Of a stretch of 64,000 nt of DNA, positions 48,339-63,197 are shown piece after piece. The DNA lies in assembly GCF_000018885.1 (NCBI RefSeq), contig NC_010168.1, positions 62,001 through 126,000 of the forward strand, read 5' to 3'. The translations under genes and the position numbers were made by a program. This DNA comes from Renibacterium salmoninarum ATCC 33209. Lineage in GTDB: Bacteria > Actinomycetota > Actinomycetes > Actinomycetales > Micrococcaceae. Positions within the stretch are counted from its first letter, which is position 1; the number at the start of each line of letters is the position of its first letter. A model generated the notes under the pieces. That model worked only from the letters and a program-made list of their open reading frames with translations. It searched no databases and was not told the DNA's origin.

Positions 48339-48495
48339 CGTGGAAATCATCACTGCTGAGTGGGTGTTCTGGTACAACCACGAACGATTGATACATCGCC
48401 TAGGAAAGATCCCGCCCGCCGAAGCAATAGCCAACTACTATGCTAGAAACCAAGCCGCCAAGCTGTCAGCTTCACACATAACCGGGAGTGCATGA
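48339..48495 (+). pseudogene. C-terminal fragment of another IS3-family transposase
   Basis: The frame reads VEIITAEWVFWYNHERLIHR then LGKIPPAEAIANYYARN, a typical end of an IS3-family OrfB (W.NWYN...RLH..LG..PP.E). It differs from IS994 (whose end is EWADWYNHRRLYQYCGDIPP). It begins exactly where IS994 copy 1 stops and runs the other way, so one element was truncated by insertion of, or recombination with, the other. Confidence 0.75.
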
Positions 48496-48628
48496 AACCC
48501 GGGGCGATTCAAATCGCTTATAACTTCGTTACAGTCTAACCAACTACAGAGACCAGCGGTAATTTTTTTTGTGGTTGAGGGCTAGTGGTGAAATACCCCA
48601 TCAAACCTGCATCAGCCCCCTTAACTCG

Positions 48629-49155
48629 CTTCAAGGCTACAGCAGAGTTAACATTTTCGAACATGGTGGTTATTCTGCTTACTTCCAAGAATTCAAGCCT
48701 GATGGGAATCCCGACGCGGTCAAAGGACCTTCTTTTGTTTATAAAAAATATGGTCCTGCCAGGGAACGGACGTTCACATCGCGATAGAGGTTAAAGTCTC
48801 TACACCTAACGGTTCCGCAACAGCAACTGACAAATTTGAATACGTGGGTAGTGACCAACACCCAGATATCCATGCACCAGATGGAGCAACTCCGGTTACT
48901 GGTAAATGGTGTTCTGGGGGCTTGGCCCACGTTTGATGGAAAACACATCGCAGACCTCAAAACCGATCCTCCAGTGAATTCTCCAACAGTTTTCCAGCCT
49001 GCGCAGGCCCAGCAGACGGTTTGTGGCTTTCTTTAATAGTCGCCAAGCCGCCATGAAGACTAGTTTCTAGACTTCTTACAGAATGCATCCGGCGTTGCCG
49101 TCTTACCTGAATCAACACCTGTTACCTAAAAAGCCAACAACCTTTAACTAAGGTT
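48629..49155 (+). pseudogene. msa: Eroded, inverted msa copy
   Basis: Pieces of p57 appear in order on the plus strand. GYSRVNIFEHGGYSAYFQEF matches the mature N-terminus GFSSVNIFQQGGYSAFFHEL. GPSFVYKKYGPA follows, and 48785-48911 is then identical to msa 49874-50000. The 3' end (TTTAACTAA, 49143-49151) is again identical to that of msa. Most of the two IPT domains and the whole repeat tail are missing, and 48912-49140 is unrecognisable. It lies tail-to-tail with intact msa. Confidence 0.8.
48785..48911. repeat. 127-bp exact inverted repeat, left arm (partner 49874-50000)
   Basis: By direct reading, these 127 bases equal the reverse complement of 49874-50000 within msa; they encode the end of the second IPT repeat (ATATDKFEYVGSDQHPDIHA). 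The flanking sequence is diverged or unrelated, so this block was copied or corrected recently. Confidence 0.85.
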
Positions 49156-49235
49156 TATTAAATCCTTAAATGAAAAAAGCCCATCCACTGGATGGGCTTT
49201 TTTCATTTAAGGATTTAATAAACCTTAGTTAAAGG
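49141..49235. repeat. 95-bp perfect palindrome containing the msa terminator
   Basis: The arms 49141-49187 and 49189-49235 are perfect reverse complements of 47 bp around a single C at 49188. The core AAAAAAGCCCATCCA-C-TGGATGGGCTTTTTT is a bidirectional intrinsic terminator. The outer ends carry the last codons and TAA of msa on both strands, so two msa 3' ends face each other here. Confidence 0.95.
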
Positions 49236-50901
49236 TAATATCTATTTTTCCGCTAAGGTCATTAGATAGTTTCCAAGCTCCGGAGGAGTGCTCAAAAACA
49301 CCGAAACTCGTCTTACCCTCACCATTCCACTGACCAGTTACCGCAACATCCCCAGCATTACCAAAGACATGGGTTGAGGCAACAGTCTGGGCATCGTAAC
49401 TAATCAAAATACTATTCTCACGATGTAACCCAACCTGGGTTTTTGCAGTCCCGATCCAGTTCCCAGTAATTGGGGCATCAGTAGAATTTCCGAATATGAA
49501 ATGATAGGAAACAGGCGGATTGGCAGTGGTTAGATCTGATGTAATATACCACTCTAATCCATTAGCAGTAGACCGTGTCACACCAATCGATGTTTTACCT
49601 TTACCATCCCAGTCACCTGTGACAGGAGTATCACCGGGATTACCAAAAGCAACGATCGCTGTTACTTTACCAATAGAAGTTCCAGCATTCGATAGATACC
49701 ATTGGCCGCCTCTCTCAACGCCAATACCAAATCGACCTTTACCATCCCAGTCACCTGTGACAGGAGTATCACCGGGATTACCAAAAGCAACTGAAACGGA
49801 ACCAGCATTTGGCTTTTGCAGTACCCATTGGCCGTCCTTGAACCATCCACCATACGTGTTGTTGTCGCCAGACCACCATTTACCAGTAACCGGAGTTGCT
49901 CCATCTGGTGCATGGATATCTGGGTGTTGGTCACTACCCACGTATTCAAATTTGTCAGTTGCTGTTGCGGAACCGTTAGGTGTAGAGACTTTAACCTCTA
50001 CCGGGCCAGCGGCATCTACTGCTGGTGTTTTTACAGTCAACGAGTTGCCATCCTGCGCGATGTGAATTTCCGTTGCCTCGTTGTCTCCGAAGGTAACTCT
50101 CGATACGTCGAATAGGTTGCCGCCATTCACCTTCACCACAGTACCGCCGTCACGAGGCCCAGTCTTAGGCTCGAGAGTTGCTGCTGTCGGGGCGCTTCCG
50201 AAGTAGTGGAAACTCTCGTACGTTACCGTCTCCCCACCGGGGTTAGTGACTGTAACCTTTACCGGGCCAGCGGCATCTACTGCTGGTGTTTTTACAGTCA
50301 ACGAGTTACCATCCTGAGCGACGGCAATGTCCGTTCCCGGTTTGTCTCCAAAGGAGACTTGCGATGCGCCGAATAGGTTGCTGCCATCCACCTTCACCAC
50401 AGTACCGCCGCCAAGAGGACCCGCCGGAGGCTGAAGTCCGGATGCAACAGGTTTATTTGCCGGGCCACATCCCATTGGGGATGGCGCATTATCGTTACAC
50501 CCGAAACCTACGTTTAGAGTCGTCCCCCAGACTTTCAGTTCCTTGGCAGGACCATCTTTGTTATAAACAAAGGAGCTTCCTTTTTGCTCATTTCCAAAAA
50601 CCGCGTTTACTACGGGAACAACAAGATCTCCGTCTTCGAAGCCCTTTTTACCTAAATCACCAGAACTATAAGAGCCACCAGCTGCAACTGGTCCTCCTGC
50701 GGCGCTGGAGGTCCCGTCAGGCCTTAACTCGTGAAAGAAAGCAGAATAACCACCCTGTTGAAAAATGTTAACACTGCTGAAGCCTTGTACTGTTGAAGTG
50801 GAAGAATTCCCTTCACCTTGCGAAGCTTGCGCAAGAGGAGCCACCCCAAAAAAAGTGACTGCAGTGACTGCAGTCAGCGCTAAAATTTTTTTTATTTTCA
50901 T
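49225..50901 (-). CDS. msa: p57 major soluble antigen
   Basis: A 558-residue secreted protein, the immunodominant cell-surface and extracellular antigen of R. salmoninarum that agglutinates salmonid leukocytes and is tied to virulence (established knowledge). The signal peptide is residues 1-26, cut after AQA before SQGEGNSS. Two IPT/TIG domains follow (GLQPPAGPLGGGTVVKVDG; TLEPKTGPRDGGTVVKVNG), then about five propeller-like repeats of the form FGNPGDTPVTGDWDGKGxxxIGV to the C-terminus. ATG 50901 starts the known leader; the frame extends 17 codons further but into non-coding-looking sequence. No good Shine-Dalgarno is visible. The gene is AT-richer than its neighbours and sits between IS elements, which suggests acquisition. 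Confidence 0.96.
   Translation of the reverse strand: MKIKKILALTAVTAVTFFGVAPLAQASQGEGNSSTSTVQGFSSVNIFQQGGYSAFFHELRPDGTSSAAGGPVAAGGSYSSGDLGKKGFEDGDLVVPVVNAVFGNEQKGSSFVYNKDGPAKELKVWGTTLNVGFGCNDNAPSPMGCGPANKPVASGLQPPAGPLGGGTVVKVDGSNLFGASQVSFGDKPGTDIAVAQDGNSLTVKTPAVDAAGPVKVTVTNPGGETVTYESFHYFGSAPTAATLEPKTGPRDGGTVVKVNGGNLFDVSRVTFGDNEATEIHIAQDGNSLTVKTPAVDAAGPVEVKVSTPNGSATATDKFEYVGSDQHPDIHAPDGATPVTGKWWSGDNNTYGGWFKDGQWVLQKPNAGSVSVAFGNPGDTPVTGDWDGKGRFGIGVERGGQWYLSNAGTSIGKVTAIVAFGNPGDTPVTGDWDGKGKTSIGVTRSTANGLEWYITSDLTTANPPVSYHFIFGNSTDAPITGNWIGTAKTQVGLHRENSILISYDAQTVASTHVFGNAGDVAVTGQWNGEGKTSFGVFEHSSGAWKLSNDLSGKIDITFN
49597..49791. repeat. 57-bp direct repeat pair inside msa
   Basis: 49597-49653 and 49735-49791 are identical and 138 bp apart, matching one propeller-like repeat unit of 46 residues. 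Slippage or recombination here would add or remove exactly one unit in frame. Confidence 0.85.
49999..50307. repeat. 48-bp direct repeat pair in the IPT region of msa
   Basis: 49999-50046 and 50260-50307 are identical and encode NSLTVKTPAVDAAGPV in each IPT/TIG repeat. The period is 261 bp, or 87 residues, in frame. Confidence 0.85.
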
Positions 50902-50908
50902 AGCTTTT

Positions 50909-50914
50909 ATTTTA
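50909..50914 (-). promoter_or_regulatory. Possible msa -10 box (leaderless transcript)
   Basis: TAAAAT on the minus strand ends eight bases before the msa ATG. Transcription from it would begin at or next to the start codon, giving a leaderless mRNA, which would explain the missing ribosome site. No clear -35 is visible. Confidence 0.35.
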
Positions 50915-51417
50915 CCACAGCGCACCAGCGAAAGCCATCTCCGCTCGTTCAACGGACCCGCGTTCCGGCATGGTTTTCACTGCTGCTCTGCAACGAGCGG
51001 AGACGTACAAACTCAAGCAAGCCGTCCCGTTGCCAAAAGCCGCAACGGCTCGGCTCGTCCGGGGATGGGCAAGTTTCTGATCAAGGTTAGGCGGCCGTCC
51101 AGGTATTCCTGTCCAACTCAGCCTCACGCGAGTATGAAGCGCACCTGAACGATACAAACAAAAAATTGGGATATGGCCTAAGGCGGCCCGTCCCTCAGAA
51201 ACGAACCAACCAACGAGTAAAAGAGTTAAAGGAGAGCAAATGTCGAACATTTCTCTGGAACCCAGAGAACACAGCTGCAGGGAGCGTGAATTCCGTGAAT
51301 CTATAGCATAAAGACCAGCAGAGCGGCAATCTGCAGAACTAGCATGCGACGTTGCCGTTGGCCTACAGGGCCACCAGATCTTGATAAACTTGTGAGATGT
51401 GTTGGTGACCCGTTTTA
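50915..51417. other. Intergenic stretch with no supported gene
   Basis: About 500 bases between msa and the IS200-type element. A leftward open frame (50912-51250) has no recognisable domain and abnormal Arg/Ala composition. One phrase on the minus strand near 51100 (ELDRNTWTAA) faintly recalls the DRDxNAAxN end of TnpB, so decayed IS605-type sequence is possible but unproven. I see no RNA gene here. Confidence 0.4.
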
Positions 51418-51907
51418 ATAGGGCGCAAGCCCTGTCGTTTAGGGCGGGGTTAGCCCGTTGGTCGTTGTTGGTTTTCGATGTATTTTTTCACGATGTTTAG
51501 GGGTGCTTCGCCGCAGGATGCGGCGAAGCAGGACGGCGACCAGAAGTGTCCTCGCATGTGGGTGCGGTTGGTGCGGCCAGTGAATTCTTGTCGCAGGTAT
51601 CTTGCCGAGACTCCTTTGAGTGAGTTAACAAGTTTTGGAGAGCGCGACTTTCGGTGGGTAGTGCACCAGCAGGTGCACATGGTCTTCTTCGCCATTAAAC
51701 TCAGTCAGTTCAGCTTCGAAGTCTTTGCAGATGTCATCCATGATTTCTTCGCACCGGGTGAGCATGTCGTTGTTGAGGACTCCGCGACGGTATTTGGTGA
51801 CGAACACCAAATGTGCGTGAAGGTTATGTACGACGTGTCTACCATGTCGAATATTAGGGTCTTGTTCCCAGCGCGGTGTCATAGCCCAATAATATTGTCA
51901 GTGGTGT
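51418..51907 (-). mobile_element. IS200/IS605-type element, broken
   Basis: It contains a tnpA pseudogene and, just after its 3' end, small hairpins (GGGCGCAAGCCC at 51421-51432 and GCCCTGTCGTTTAGGGC at 51428-51444) like the structured ends of IS200/IS605 elements. The other end is cut short by IS994 copy 2 only 25 bases beyond the tnpA start. Confidence 0.7.
51450..51882 (-). pseudogene. TnpA Y1 transposase of IS200/IS605 type, frameshifted
   Basis: The N-terminal part carries HNLHAHLVFVTKYRRGV and the HUH motif EDHVHLLVHYPPKVALSK. One extra A in an A run (near 51635) shifts the frame; the remainder reads LVNSLKGVSARYLRQEF and ends with the catalytic Tyr region APLNIVKKYIENQQRP. Both the HUH and Tyr sites are intact, so a one-base reversion would restore it. 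Confidence 0.88.
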
Positions 51908-51958
51908 CTGAATCGCCCCGGCGTGTCCGGAGACTTTCTTGTTTGAGAGGATCAGGAC

Positions 51959-52324
51959 ATGGCAGGGAAAACTACGACACGGTATCCGCAGGAGTTGAAG
52001 GATCATACGGTGCGCATGGTGGCGGAGATGGAGGGTGCATCTTCGGAGTGGGCGGCGATGCAAAAAGTTGCCCAGCTTTTGGGTGTGGGTGTGCCGGAAA
52101 CGGTGCGTAAATGGGTCCGGCAAGCCGAGATCGATGTTGGTACTAGAACTGGAACAACGAGCACGGAATCGGCCGAGCTGAAACGGTTACGGCGTGAGAA
52201 CGCTGAGCTGAAACGGGCGAACGCGATCCTTCGGAGTGCTTCAGCTTTTGTCGCGGTCGAACTCGACCGCCACAACACTGATCGTGAAATACATCAAGGA
52301 CCATGCCGGTCACCGCGAGAATAA
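51959..52324 (+). CDS. IS994 OrfA (HTH regulator/transposase subunit)
   Basis: A 121-residue product: HTH region (YPQELKDHTVRMVAEME, AQLLGVGVPETVRKWVRQAE) and a C-terminal leucine-zipper-like coiled coil (ESAELKRLRRENAELKRANA). The family sequence ASAFxAxELDR is reached near residue 105, after which the frame leaves the orfB coding phase. Confidence 0.85.
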   Translation: MAGKTTTRYPQELKDHTVRMVAEMEGASSEWAAMQKVAQLLGVGVPETVRKWVRQAEIDVGTRTGTTSTESAELKRLRRENAELKRANAILRSASAFVAVELDRHNTDREIHQGPCRSPRE

Positions 52325-53224
52325 TGGATTGCGGTGGGGTGTCGAGTCGATCTGCCAGGTGCTTACTGGGACGGGGTGAAGACCACCCCGTCCACGTACT
52401 ACGAATGGGTGGATAAAACACGATCTCACCGAGAACAACGTGATGAGGTGCTCAAGCCCGTGATCCAGAAGGTGTATGCCGCTAATTACGGGGTTTACGG
52501 CACCAGGAAAGTCTGGTTGGCGATGAACCGTGAAGGTGTGCCGGTGGCCAGGTGCACGGTAGAACGGCTCATGGGGTTACTTGGCATACAGGGTGCGGTC
52601 CGTGGCAAGGTCAAACGCACCACGATCAAAGACTCGAAGGCGGCCCGAGCGAAGGACTTGGTCCGCCGTGATTTCACACCAACGGCACCGGATCGGCTAT
52701 GGGTAGATGATTTCACCTATGTTTCGACCTGGTCCGGGTGGGTCTATGTTGCCTTCGTGATCGATGCTTACTCTCGGAGGATCCTGGGCTGGTCAGCGAG
52801 TGCTTCTATGAACACCGTGCTAGTGCTCAACGCAGTTAATCAGGCAATCTGGAGTCGTGAACGGGCCGGGGCTGAGATTTCCGGGGTGATTCATCATCAC
52901 GATGCCGGGGCTCAATACGCCTCCTTGGCCTTCACCGAACGCCTGGCCCAGGCCGGTATCCGCCCCTCGATCGGTTCTGTGGGTGATAGTTACGACAACG
53001 TCTTGGCGGAAACCATCAACGGGCTTTATAAGACCGAGCTGATCAAACCCGGCAAGCCCTGGCGGACTCTAGAAGAAGTCGAAATCGGCACCGCTGAATG
53101 GGCCGATTGGTACAACCACCGAAGGCTCTACCAGTACTGCGGAGACATCCCACCAGTAGAGCTAGAAAACCACTACTACAATCACTACCAGAGCACGGCA
53201 GCCGCCGACAGGCTCATCGTCTGA
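52278..53224 (+). CDS. IS994 OrfB transposase (DDE), two reading phases
   Basis: The beginning (LIVKYIKDHAGHRENNGLRW, then VESICQVLTGTG) lies in the +1 frame relative to orfA and stops at TGA 52377-52379. The rest (VKTTPSTYYEW to the end) is in the orfA phase from about 52376. The catalytic triad is DRLWVDDF, HHHDAGAQY and AETINGLYKTE. The same arrangement occurs in copy 1, so it is a property of the element here rather than a recent lesion. Confidence 0.75.
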
Positions 53225-53255
53225 GAAACCCTCCGGACACACCGGAGCGGTTCAG

Positions 53256-56200
53256 TTCTTTGTCCGTGATCACGATGCTGGCCTTTCCTGCGGAGACTGG
53301 GCAGCGGAAACGAGCAGCCCAGCGTTGACTGTCGCGATGCGAGAAAGAGCTCTGAGTAGTTCCGCTGCGATCTGTTCGCCTACCGCGAGTTGAATCCCAT
53401 CTGATCGCCAGGAAACGATGCATTGCATCCCGCCGGCGGCCGTTGGGATCGCTTCTATCGTGAGCTCGGTAGAGGTTTTGGGCGGCCGGATTCGAATCGC
53501 TTGGACGGTGATTAAGTCATTGAGCCGGCCCCGATATGGCTCCTTTTGAAGCACCACGAAAGCTTGGAACCAAGGGTGTCTGGTCCGCGGTGGCGAAAGC
53601 TCTCGGACCAGCGCGTCAAAGGGCATCTGAGCGTGCGTTAGCGCGGAAGCTACCTGCTCAATAGCCTGGGACAACACCTGTTCAAGTGCTGAATTTGCCG
53701 AAAGACGAATCGCAAAGGGATTGACGAAGTAGCCAATCACCTCGTTCAGAGCCGGGTCGAAACGACCTGCGGTCACGGAGCCTAGGCACAGTTCTTCCAC
53801 ATCGAAAATGCCAGCTAGCACGATCGCGGAGCCGGCCACTATTAGCGGCAGTAACGGACTACCGTTTTTGGCAGCGGTTGCGGCTAACTCTGCCGTGAGT
53901 TCCGGACTAATCTCAGCAATGGCCTCTTCTCGGCAGGCCTCAGCGCGAGTTGCCGGAGCGGGCAAAAAGGTGCGACGGCGTTCTTCAAAGCATGTTGCCA
54001 ATGTGGCAAATCGTAGCTGGCCAAGGTTTCCTTTTGCCCGGCCTCCCACTCACCATAGTTGGCCATCGTGAAATTGTTGCTGGCTGCGAGTGCCTGCTGA
54101 TTCGGCTGCTCGCCGGTGAAGACTTCTTGTAAATCGTCGAGAAAAATCTGTTCACACCATCCGTCGAAAGCAATATGGTGCGCCTGCAGGAAAAGGAGAT
54201 GTTTCTGCGCAGAAAGCTGGCAAATTCTGAAGCGGAGGGGGGCTTCGTCCTCTAGATCAAAAGGACGATCCCAGAGATCTTGGCTGATTTGTGCTGCCGC
54301 ATCTTCAACCGAAAGATGCCCAGCTCCCGCGGGCAACGCACTGAGCTGGATTTCTAGCTTTGCCTCTTCGGAGGTTTGCACCTCCTGGACCGCAGATTCC
54401 TCGCCAAAAGGGTAGCGAGTTCGCAGCCCGGGGTGACGATCGATCACTTTTCGGAGCGAGTCAACCAGAGTGGTCACCTCCAGCGGGCCCTCAAGAAGGT
54501 AGGCAAGCACCAACATGTTGTCCGCGGAACCGGGTTCTTGCATCTCGGCCAGCCAGAACCTTTGCTGAGCGTGCGAAAGCGGCGCAATGTTTTGTTCGGA
54601 ATCGTCGGCAATTAGCGGAATCGATAGCGCCGGACGTTGTTGAGCGGACACCGTGTGGCAATGGGCGCGCAGCTGGCGAAGACTGCCCAGTCGATAAACA
54701 TCACCCGCACTGAGGGGGGTATTGAAGTGCTTACCAACCCTTGCCGCTAATCGGATGATGTCCAAAGAGTTTGCCCCGGCAAGCACCAGATTGTGCTCAG
54801 CGGAGAGATTGGGCAGGCCAACGATTTCTCGAATCTCGGCGAGCAACGGATCGCTTTCGTCCAGGGGTTCGGACGGGCTAGCAGCCGTGCGAGGCTTAGC
54901 ATCGTGTGCTTCGAGCAGGGTTCGAACTTTTTTCCGATCGGTTTTTCCATTGGCATTGAGCGGCAGCGAGGTCAGCTGGTGGAAGACCGTTGGCAGCATG
55001 GCCGGTAGTAGTCGGTGGGAGGCAAATTTTCTTAGCTCGGATTCGGTGTGTTGAGACCCGGCGCTACTGGAATAGGCCACAGCAAGCACCGGCCGCTGAT
55101 TCTCTCTGCTGATGGTCAGAGCGCAGACTTTAACAATCTCGGGGTGGCTTTCTAGGACCGCTTCTATTTCACCAACGTCAATTCGGATGCCACGAATCTT
55201 AATCTGATCGTCAATGCGGCCGCGGTAGGACAAGATGCCGTGCGGATCTCTGGCCACTCGATCCCCAGTGCGGTAGTAAGGTATTCCGCGATGGCTGAAG
55301 AAGGCGCGCTCAGTCTCCTCCGGCTGGCCAGCGTAGCCAAGCGCCAGCCCGTCGCCGCCAACGGCTAGTTCTCCTTCATCCGCGTCGCGGGGATGACCTT
55401 CTGCATCCAAGAACAAGATCGGCGTGTGCGGTAACGGCGTGCCAATGGGAATTTCGGTACTGGAATCAGCAACATCTACCGCGCGAATTACGTGTGTGCT
55501 GACGAAGATCGTAGCTTCGGCCGGGCCGTATCCGTTGACAATTTTTAGCTCGGGGTATTGCGCCATCACGCCACTCACGCTGGCAACTGATACTCGCTCA
55601 CCGCCAACAATCAGCAATTTGAGCCCGGCAAATAACTCGGGGCGCTCCTCAGCAAAGAGGCTAAACAGAGAGCTCGTCCGCCAGAGGCTATTCACTCCTC
55701 GCGCAATTGCGCGCTCTAGCTGATCGCTGTCCAGAGCCGCTGAGCTCTGATCCATCAAAACGCAGCGTCCACCATTGAGCAAAGGTGCCCACAATTCAAG
55801 CGAAAGCGCGTCCCAAGGTAGCGGTGCTGCCTGCAAAAAGACGCTACGTGAATCGAGGTCCAAGGTGGGCGAATCGACTACGGTTCGGATGGTGCCTCGA
55901 TGCGGTGAAAGAACACCTTTCGGCTTGCCGGTGGAGCCGGAGGTATAAAAAATGCTGGCAGCGCAAGAGCCGTCGGTTAATGCTGCTGGCGGAACGGAGC
56001 TAATCTTTTGCAGCTCATCGAACGTGACTACAGCCATCCCACTGGCTGAGGCGGCGGACTCGAGTTCGCCTCTTTTTGTTGAGATCAAGAGATCTGTTTC
56101 CGTGCCAGCGAGCACATCGAGAACCCTGCCGGTCGGCCAACTTTCATCGGTAGCAGCGTAGGCCGCGCCAGCCCGAAGCACGCCAAGCAACATGACCACC

Positions 56201-63149: not shown

Positions 63150-63197
63150 CGATATTGGACGGAGCCGGCGAAATTTCGCCGGCTCCGTCCAATATCG
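63150..63197. terminator. 48-bp perfect palindrome, repeat family member 2
   Basis: 63150-63173 is the exact reverse complement of 63174-63197, with no unpaired centre base. It lies between the lipoprotein start and the glucosidase stop, both leftward, and probably terminates the glucosidase transcript. Confidence 0.85.

Follow-up and report, generated by a model that had tools for sequence, protein, structure and literature searches.

The window analyzed here is the 64-kb stretch G000:C1:62001-126000 of the Renibacterium salmoninarum genome (G000; a single contig of 3,155,250 bp) and carries msa1, one of two msa copies, between IS elements in inverted orientation (Table 1). At the 3′ end of msa1 lies a perfect palindrome of 97 bp (111,140-111,236 in genome coordinates), whose arms match with 0 mismatches around a single base. 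The initial annotation had placed a 95-bp palindrome at 49141..49235; it is indeed there and extends one base further at each end. Outside the arms the symmetry ends abruptly, with mismatches at offsets 49, 50, 52-56, and on. Under an independent-base model, the chance expectation for a palindrome of this length is ∼2 × 10⁻²⁴ per 64 kb. It is the longest perfect palindrome in the window, and none of the palindromes examined has longer arms with a centre of 0 or 1 base. The second longest of the window, 48 bp at 63150-63197, lies between two same-strand genes, its core lacks a T-run, and its flanks show no inverted homology.

The palindrome, its terminator prediction, and its C/G centre are already known from Brynildsrud et al. 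2016 (PMC5320689). The available text of that paper describes a "91 bp perfect palindrome" at msa, a rho-independent terminator predicted at both msa loci with ARNold, and a centre base, G in msa1 and C in msa2, located 37 bp downstream of the ORF. It also states that the palindrome confounds short-read mapping at the locus. The distance from the msa stop (49225) to the centre (49188) matches these 37 bp, whereas our measurement of the palindrome is 97 bp rather than 91 bp. In further contrast to that paper, we dissect an inverted msa remnant next to the palindrome and read the centre base as a possible flip, not as a riboswitch matter.

Table 1. Features at the msa1 locus (window coordinates)
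Feature	Position	Strand	Basis
Partial IS element, inverted relative to the copy at 51908-53256; IS994 according to the available text of PMC5320689	47313..48338	-	Sequence
Block of 2,421 bp common to the msa1 and msa2 loci, 2 differences (48531, 49188)	48519..50939		Block comparison
Decayed inverted msa-like remnant, three collinear pieces	48632..48917	+	Sequence comparison with msa
Intervening 222 bp, no more msa-like than shuffles	48918..49139		Shuffle comparison
Perfect palindrome, 48-bp arms, centre 49188	49140..49236		Sequence
Terminator-like core: A6, 8-bp stem, 3-nt loop, 8-bp stem, T6; readable on both strands	49173..49203		Sequence; msa-strand fold; ARNold prediction by others
Centre base of the palindrome: C here, G on the same strand in the msa2 block	49188..49188		Block comparison; also available text of PMC5320689
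msa (msa1) CDS, 558 aa, TIG/IPT domains; stop and last three codons within the right arm of the palindrome	49225..50901	-	Sequence
IS element, 1,349 bp, 99.6% match beside msa2; IS994 according to the available text of PMC5320689	51908..53256	+	Sequence

A terminator-like core at the centre of the palindrome

By its build, the palindrome core looks like a predicted bidirectional intrinsic terminator of msa. Six of the 8 bp in the core stem are G-C pairs and T6 follows directly, which is the structure of an intrinsic terminator; the fold of the msa strand reached −72.5 kcal/mol (z, −14.9), and 0 of 200 shuffles were as good. The shared terminator proposed in the initial annotation thus has its counterpart in a core that can be read on both strands. 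As in bidirectional intrinsic (rho-independent) terminators, this core offers a GC-rich stem, a short loop, and a T-run on both strands, but, unlike in these, perfect symmetry reaches 33 bp past the T-run on each side. The core was absent from the 7 hits of a generic terminator scan, probably because its T-run is itself paired and falls outside the tail rule of the scan.

The present function of the palindrome would be to stop transcription of msa. Termination would not explain the outer 33 bp of each arm, since RNA polymerase is expected to dissociate at the T-run, ahead of the distal arm. The contribution of these 33 bp to termination should be small, because they lie before the hairpin in one direction and past the T-run in the other, and they look like a relic at the DNA level. 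A search for riboswitches in 48400-51500 returned 0 Rfam families at gathering score; the 13 subthreshold matches all fell at the palindrome, and none was to a riboswitch.

An inverted msa remnant faces the gene

The remnant left of the palindrome consists of pieces at 48632-48707 (12 mismatches in 76 positions against msa; 84% identity), 48722-48770 (8 in 49; 84% identity), and 48782-48917 (2 in 136; 98.5% identity), the last with its msa counterpart at 49868-50003. This identity is uneven (20/125 versus 2/136 mismatches; Fisher p = 2 × 10⁻⁵), so one simple event does not explain the remnant, and the pattern points to a mosaic, produced for instance through gene conversion, for which the 136-bp tract of 98.5% identity beside the 84% tracts is a possible case. 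The 222 bp that follow showed no msa similarity above shuffles, either at the DNA level (79 of 300 shuffles scored as high) or in three frames (239, 97, and 114 of 300), and had no match in the R. salmoninarum genome beyond the msa1 and msa2 blocks. Only the palindrome arm therefore still shows the facing msa 3′ end. The initial annotation had described the site as the junction of an inverted duplication. Inverted msa-like sequence does lie on the far side, in collinear pieces; however, the facing copy is decayed, and what adjoins the arm is unlike msa.

Inverted homologous flanks were seen at 0 of 17 other long palindromes (arms of at least 22 bp; genome sample plus window) when 1.5 kb was compared on each side (less on one side in four cases, and only 124 bp in one of these), which leaves the msa palindrome as the only one of 18. 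A long perfect palindrome in this genome thus need not mark an inverted duplication. One of the others, L145:4086-4161 (G000:C1:2304086-2304161), is a 76-bp perfect palindrome of msa-like build, also without inverted homologous flanks.

The two msa copies differ at the palindrome centre

The second copy, msa2 (G000:C1:945101-946774), has the same 97 bp at G000:C1:946766-946862, except that its centre base is the complement; neither copy shows a mismatch between the arms. Between the common blocks (110,519-112,939 in genome coordinates at msa1), the differences are A/G at 48531 and C/G at the palindrome centre, and the chance of one of two substitutions falling on the centre base is ∼8 × 10⁻⁴. 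The same palindrome occurs at both loci, each time with the same inverted partner, since the block was copied whole. The refuting result named in the initial annotation, the palindrome at an msa copy that lacks an inverted partner, was not observed, but for this reason msa2 is uninformative as a test of it. Most simply, the palindrome would be older than the msa1/msa2 duplication. Palindrome inversion or hairpin processing would leave a complemented centre, and the change may be a flip; a plain transversion or a sequencing error are possible alternatives.

The only msa-like sequences in the R. salmoninarum genome are the two msa copies and the two remnant copies. No msa relative was confirmed in the searched genome contigs, where 20 stretches matched a pattern but tblastn showed 0 of them to encode a relative. 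The common block is bordered at msa2 by L011:12484-12530, which looks like a terminal repeat of the Tn3 family, and at msa1 by what looks like an IS3-type transposase remnant instead. A short ORF between msa1 and the right-hand IS994 copy (51625-51882) resembles, by eye, a fragment of an IS200/IS605-type transposase.

Long palindromes and SbcCD in R. salmoninarum and its relatives

We counted perfect palindromes with a spacer of up to 8 in two samples of the R. salmoninarum genome (800 kb, excluding the window and msa2) and in related genomes. The R. salmoninarum samples contained 16 with arms of at least 20 bp, 8 with at least 30 bp, and 2 with at least 40 bp, the longest measuring 103 bp in all. 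SbcCD-bearing relatives had 2 (G003), 1 (G005), 3 (G006), and 2 (G007) per 400 kb with arms of at least 20 bp and 0 each with at least 30 bp, and G001, which is without SbcCD, had 8 and 0, respectively, in 299 kb of one contig. Arms of at least 14 bp showed no such contrast (30 per 800 kb in R. salmoninarum; 12, 19, 22, and 13 per 400 kb in the four relatives; 15 per 299 kb in G001). Count tests for arms of at least 20 bp gave p = 9 × 10⁻⁵ for the pooled genomes (24 in 1.099 Mb versus 8 in 1.6 Mb), 9 × 10⁻⁴ for R. salmoninarum (16 versus 8), and 0.0015 for G001 (8 versus 8), and for arms of at least 30 bp, p was 1.5 × 10⁻⁴ for R. salmoninarum (8 versus 0); counted by genome, the sample as a whole is only 2 versus 4.

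One palindromic repeat family contributes part of the excess in R. salmoninarum. Its members are long, perfect palindromes that look REP-like, are dispersed genome-wide (e.g., L030:2850-2940 and L045:19227-19329), and share the core ACGCTGCACCACTTTT. This core had 39 forward and 39 reverse matches with at most 1 mismatch, against 0 for a reversed-pattern control. When the family was removed, from the R. salmoninarum counts only and with L144:5705-5765 assigned to it by eye as a variant, 9 palindromes remained with arms of at least 20 bp, a weak excess (9 versus 8; p = 0.075), and 4 with at least 30 bp (4 versus 0; p = 0.012).

Unlike its sister genomes G004 and G006, the R. salmoninarum genome seems to lack a canonical SbcCD hairpin nuclease. 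The SbcD model gave only partial matches in it (best, 39.8 bits versus a cut-off of 77.65) and exceeded the cut-off in 14 of the 19 genomes searched, R. salmoninarum being one of the 19. The SbcC model scored 27 bits, but this model is weak: of 14 genomes used as controls, 1 exceeded the cut-off, and the SbcC of G006 itself scored 260.9 versus a cut-off of 478.5. Of 10 genomes searched with G006 SbcC as the query, G003-G007 had full-length relatives, G001 had two hits that were short and weak, and G000, G002, G013, and G015 had none; G006 SbcD likewise found full-length relatives in G003-G007, and the remaining five genomes gave at most short, weak hits. An SbcD-like metallophosphoesterase of 377 aa remains in R. 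salmoninarum (L024:1391-2524; 51.9 bits over residues 1-94), and a related nuclease activity is therefore possible. The rpoB tree places this genome as sister to the SbcCD-bearing G004/G006 (support, 99/97), so it appears to have lost SbcCD independently of G001 and G002 (3 changes, of which at least 2 are forced).

Loss of SbcCD might let terminators and repeats grow into long perfect palindromes and let palindrome centres flip, in which case palindrome length would record the loss; we put this forward tentatively, as a proposition that is rather doubtful at present. According to the available text of PMC4245961, the smallest hairpins that E. coli SbcCD cleaves in vitro are equivalent to palindromes of 20-36 bp. 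During replication in E. coli, however, SbcCD did not target an 85-bp interrupted palindrome, according to the available text of Darmon et al. 2010 (PMC3315005), so a 97-bp palindrome may be tolerated even in the presence of the nuclease. The lack of arms of at least 30 bp in the 299 kb of G001, also without SbcCD, likewise speaks against the link. As a reason for palindrome tolerance, SbcCD loss is thus a suggestive lead only. Our literature search for Renibacterium with SbcC found no report of SbcCD absence, and the possible link goes, as far as searched, beyond what is in print. Both the palindrome counts and the available text of PMC3315005 indicate that the premise of the initial annotation, that long perfect palindromes are normally removed, was too strong at 97 bp.

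Origin of the palindrome and rival explanations

We favor, with modest confidence, the explanation that a bidirectional msa terminator had its arms turned into a long perfect palindrome by an inverted-duplication event at its hairpin; the palindrome is probably what remains of an inverted duplication that involved the msa end. The core with its A6 and T6, the fold of the msa strand, the ARNold prediction by others, the stop codon within the arm, the collinear remnant, the inverted homologous flanks seen at this palindrome alone among the 18, the presence of the palindrome in both blocks, and the complemented centre as one of only two block differences all speak for this origin. We infer the following steps. 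A strand switch of replication at the terminator hairpin, by fold-back priming or a template switch, would have produced a backward copy of the msa end. This inverted copy would then have decayed, with parts perhaps held close to msa by gene conversion, and the whole block would later have been copied, giving msa1 and msa2. A flip of the centre base may have followed, through processing of a hairpin or cruciform or through recombination of one arm with the other. The available text of Darmon et al. 2010 (PMC3315005) states that short palindromes are able to seed inverted duplications in E. coli lacking both SbcCD and RecA. As in those duplications, inverted copies at the msa site face each other across a short palindrome, but, unlike their chromosome-scale product, the msa site holds a small, decayed remnant of an event that we deduce rather than observe. 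Against this explanation stand the uneven identity of the remnant, the absence of the core from the hits of the generic terminator scan, the 222 bp by the left arm that are unlike msa, and the lack of visible inverted flanks at 17 of 17 other long palindromes.

The last two observations, together with the abrupt end of the arms, would fit local perfecting: intramolecular template switching (quasipalindrome mutation) would have extended a short, imperfect terminator hairpin into the 97-bp palindrome, and the neighbouring msa remnant would go back to a separate, older rearrangement. Template switching that perfects quasipalindromes is described for E. coli in the available text of PMC7202029 and could act on an imperfect hairpin as proposed for msa, and the palindrome at L145:4086-4161 shares the build of A-run, stem, and T-run with extended arms. 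However, the msa palindrome alone among the 18 adjoins an inverted, collinear copy of the neighbouring gene, and we found no imperfect ancestor of the msa site for comparison; we regard this history as possible but unlikely. Two further readings concern the centre base. That its difference reflects a base-calling or assembly error at the hairpin, instead of a biological flip, appears very improbable. Sequence at hairpins is error-prone. According to the available text of PMC5320689, segment orientation in extra copies could not be resolved, yet the reference and this same text treat C/G as a real msa1/msa2 polymorphism. The least credible reading, raised in PMC5320689, makes the 3′ palindrome a riboswitch-like regulator whose C/G centre causes msa1 and msa2 expression to differ; the RibEx/ARNold prediction and the C/G centre given in the available text of that paper favor it, but the Rfam result given above and the position of the palindrome 3′ of the gene speak against it.

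The initial annotation had instead read the palindrome as an unstable site that seeds msa deletions or amplification, which we consider improbable. The variable copy number it invoked is already known (68 isolates carry between 2 and 5 msa copies, according to the available text of PMC5320689) and fits such a role, as do the apparent lack of canonical SbcCD and the finding that, in E. coli lacking both SbcCD and RecA, inverted duplication of the chromosome can be seeded by an 85-bp interrupted palindrome (PMC3315005, available text). However, the arms are perfect in both msa copies, and neither the published duplication units nor the msa1/msa2 block end at the palindrome. According to the available text of PMC5320689, whose unit coordinates derive from coverage depth, one type of duplication unit spans about 110,000-115,000 and is flanked by inverted IS994, and the other spans 110,400-112,901 or its msa2 equivalent, 945,077-947,575. 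The palindromes at both loci are internal to these units, and the msa1/msa2 block also runs across them and ends elsewhere; inverted IS994 copies bound the larger unit. Published coordinates and block thus speak for duplication at the IS or block level rather than from breakpoints at the palindrome, and give no sign that the palindrome drives msa copy-number change.

Implications for msa and for palindrome tolerance

The palindrome sits just behind the gene for the main surface and virulence antigen of a fish (salmon) pathogen. If it is regarded as a terminator that is old and faithfully maintained, and not as an amplification trigger, attention turns to the flanking IS994 copies and to the block ends. 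If the apparent absence of canonical SbcCD were tied to palindrome length, R. salmoninarum would offer a natural test of the effect of this nuclease on bacterial genomes.
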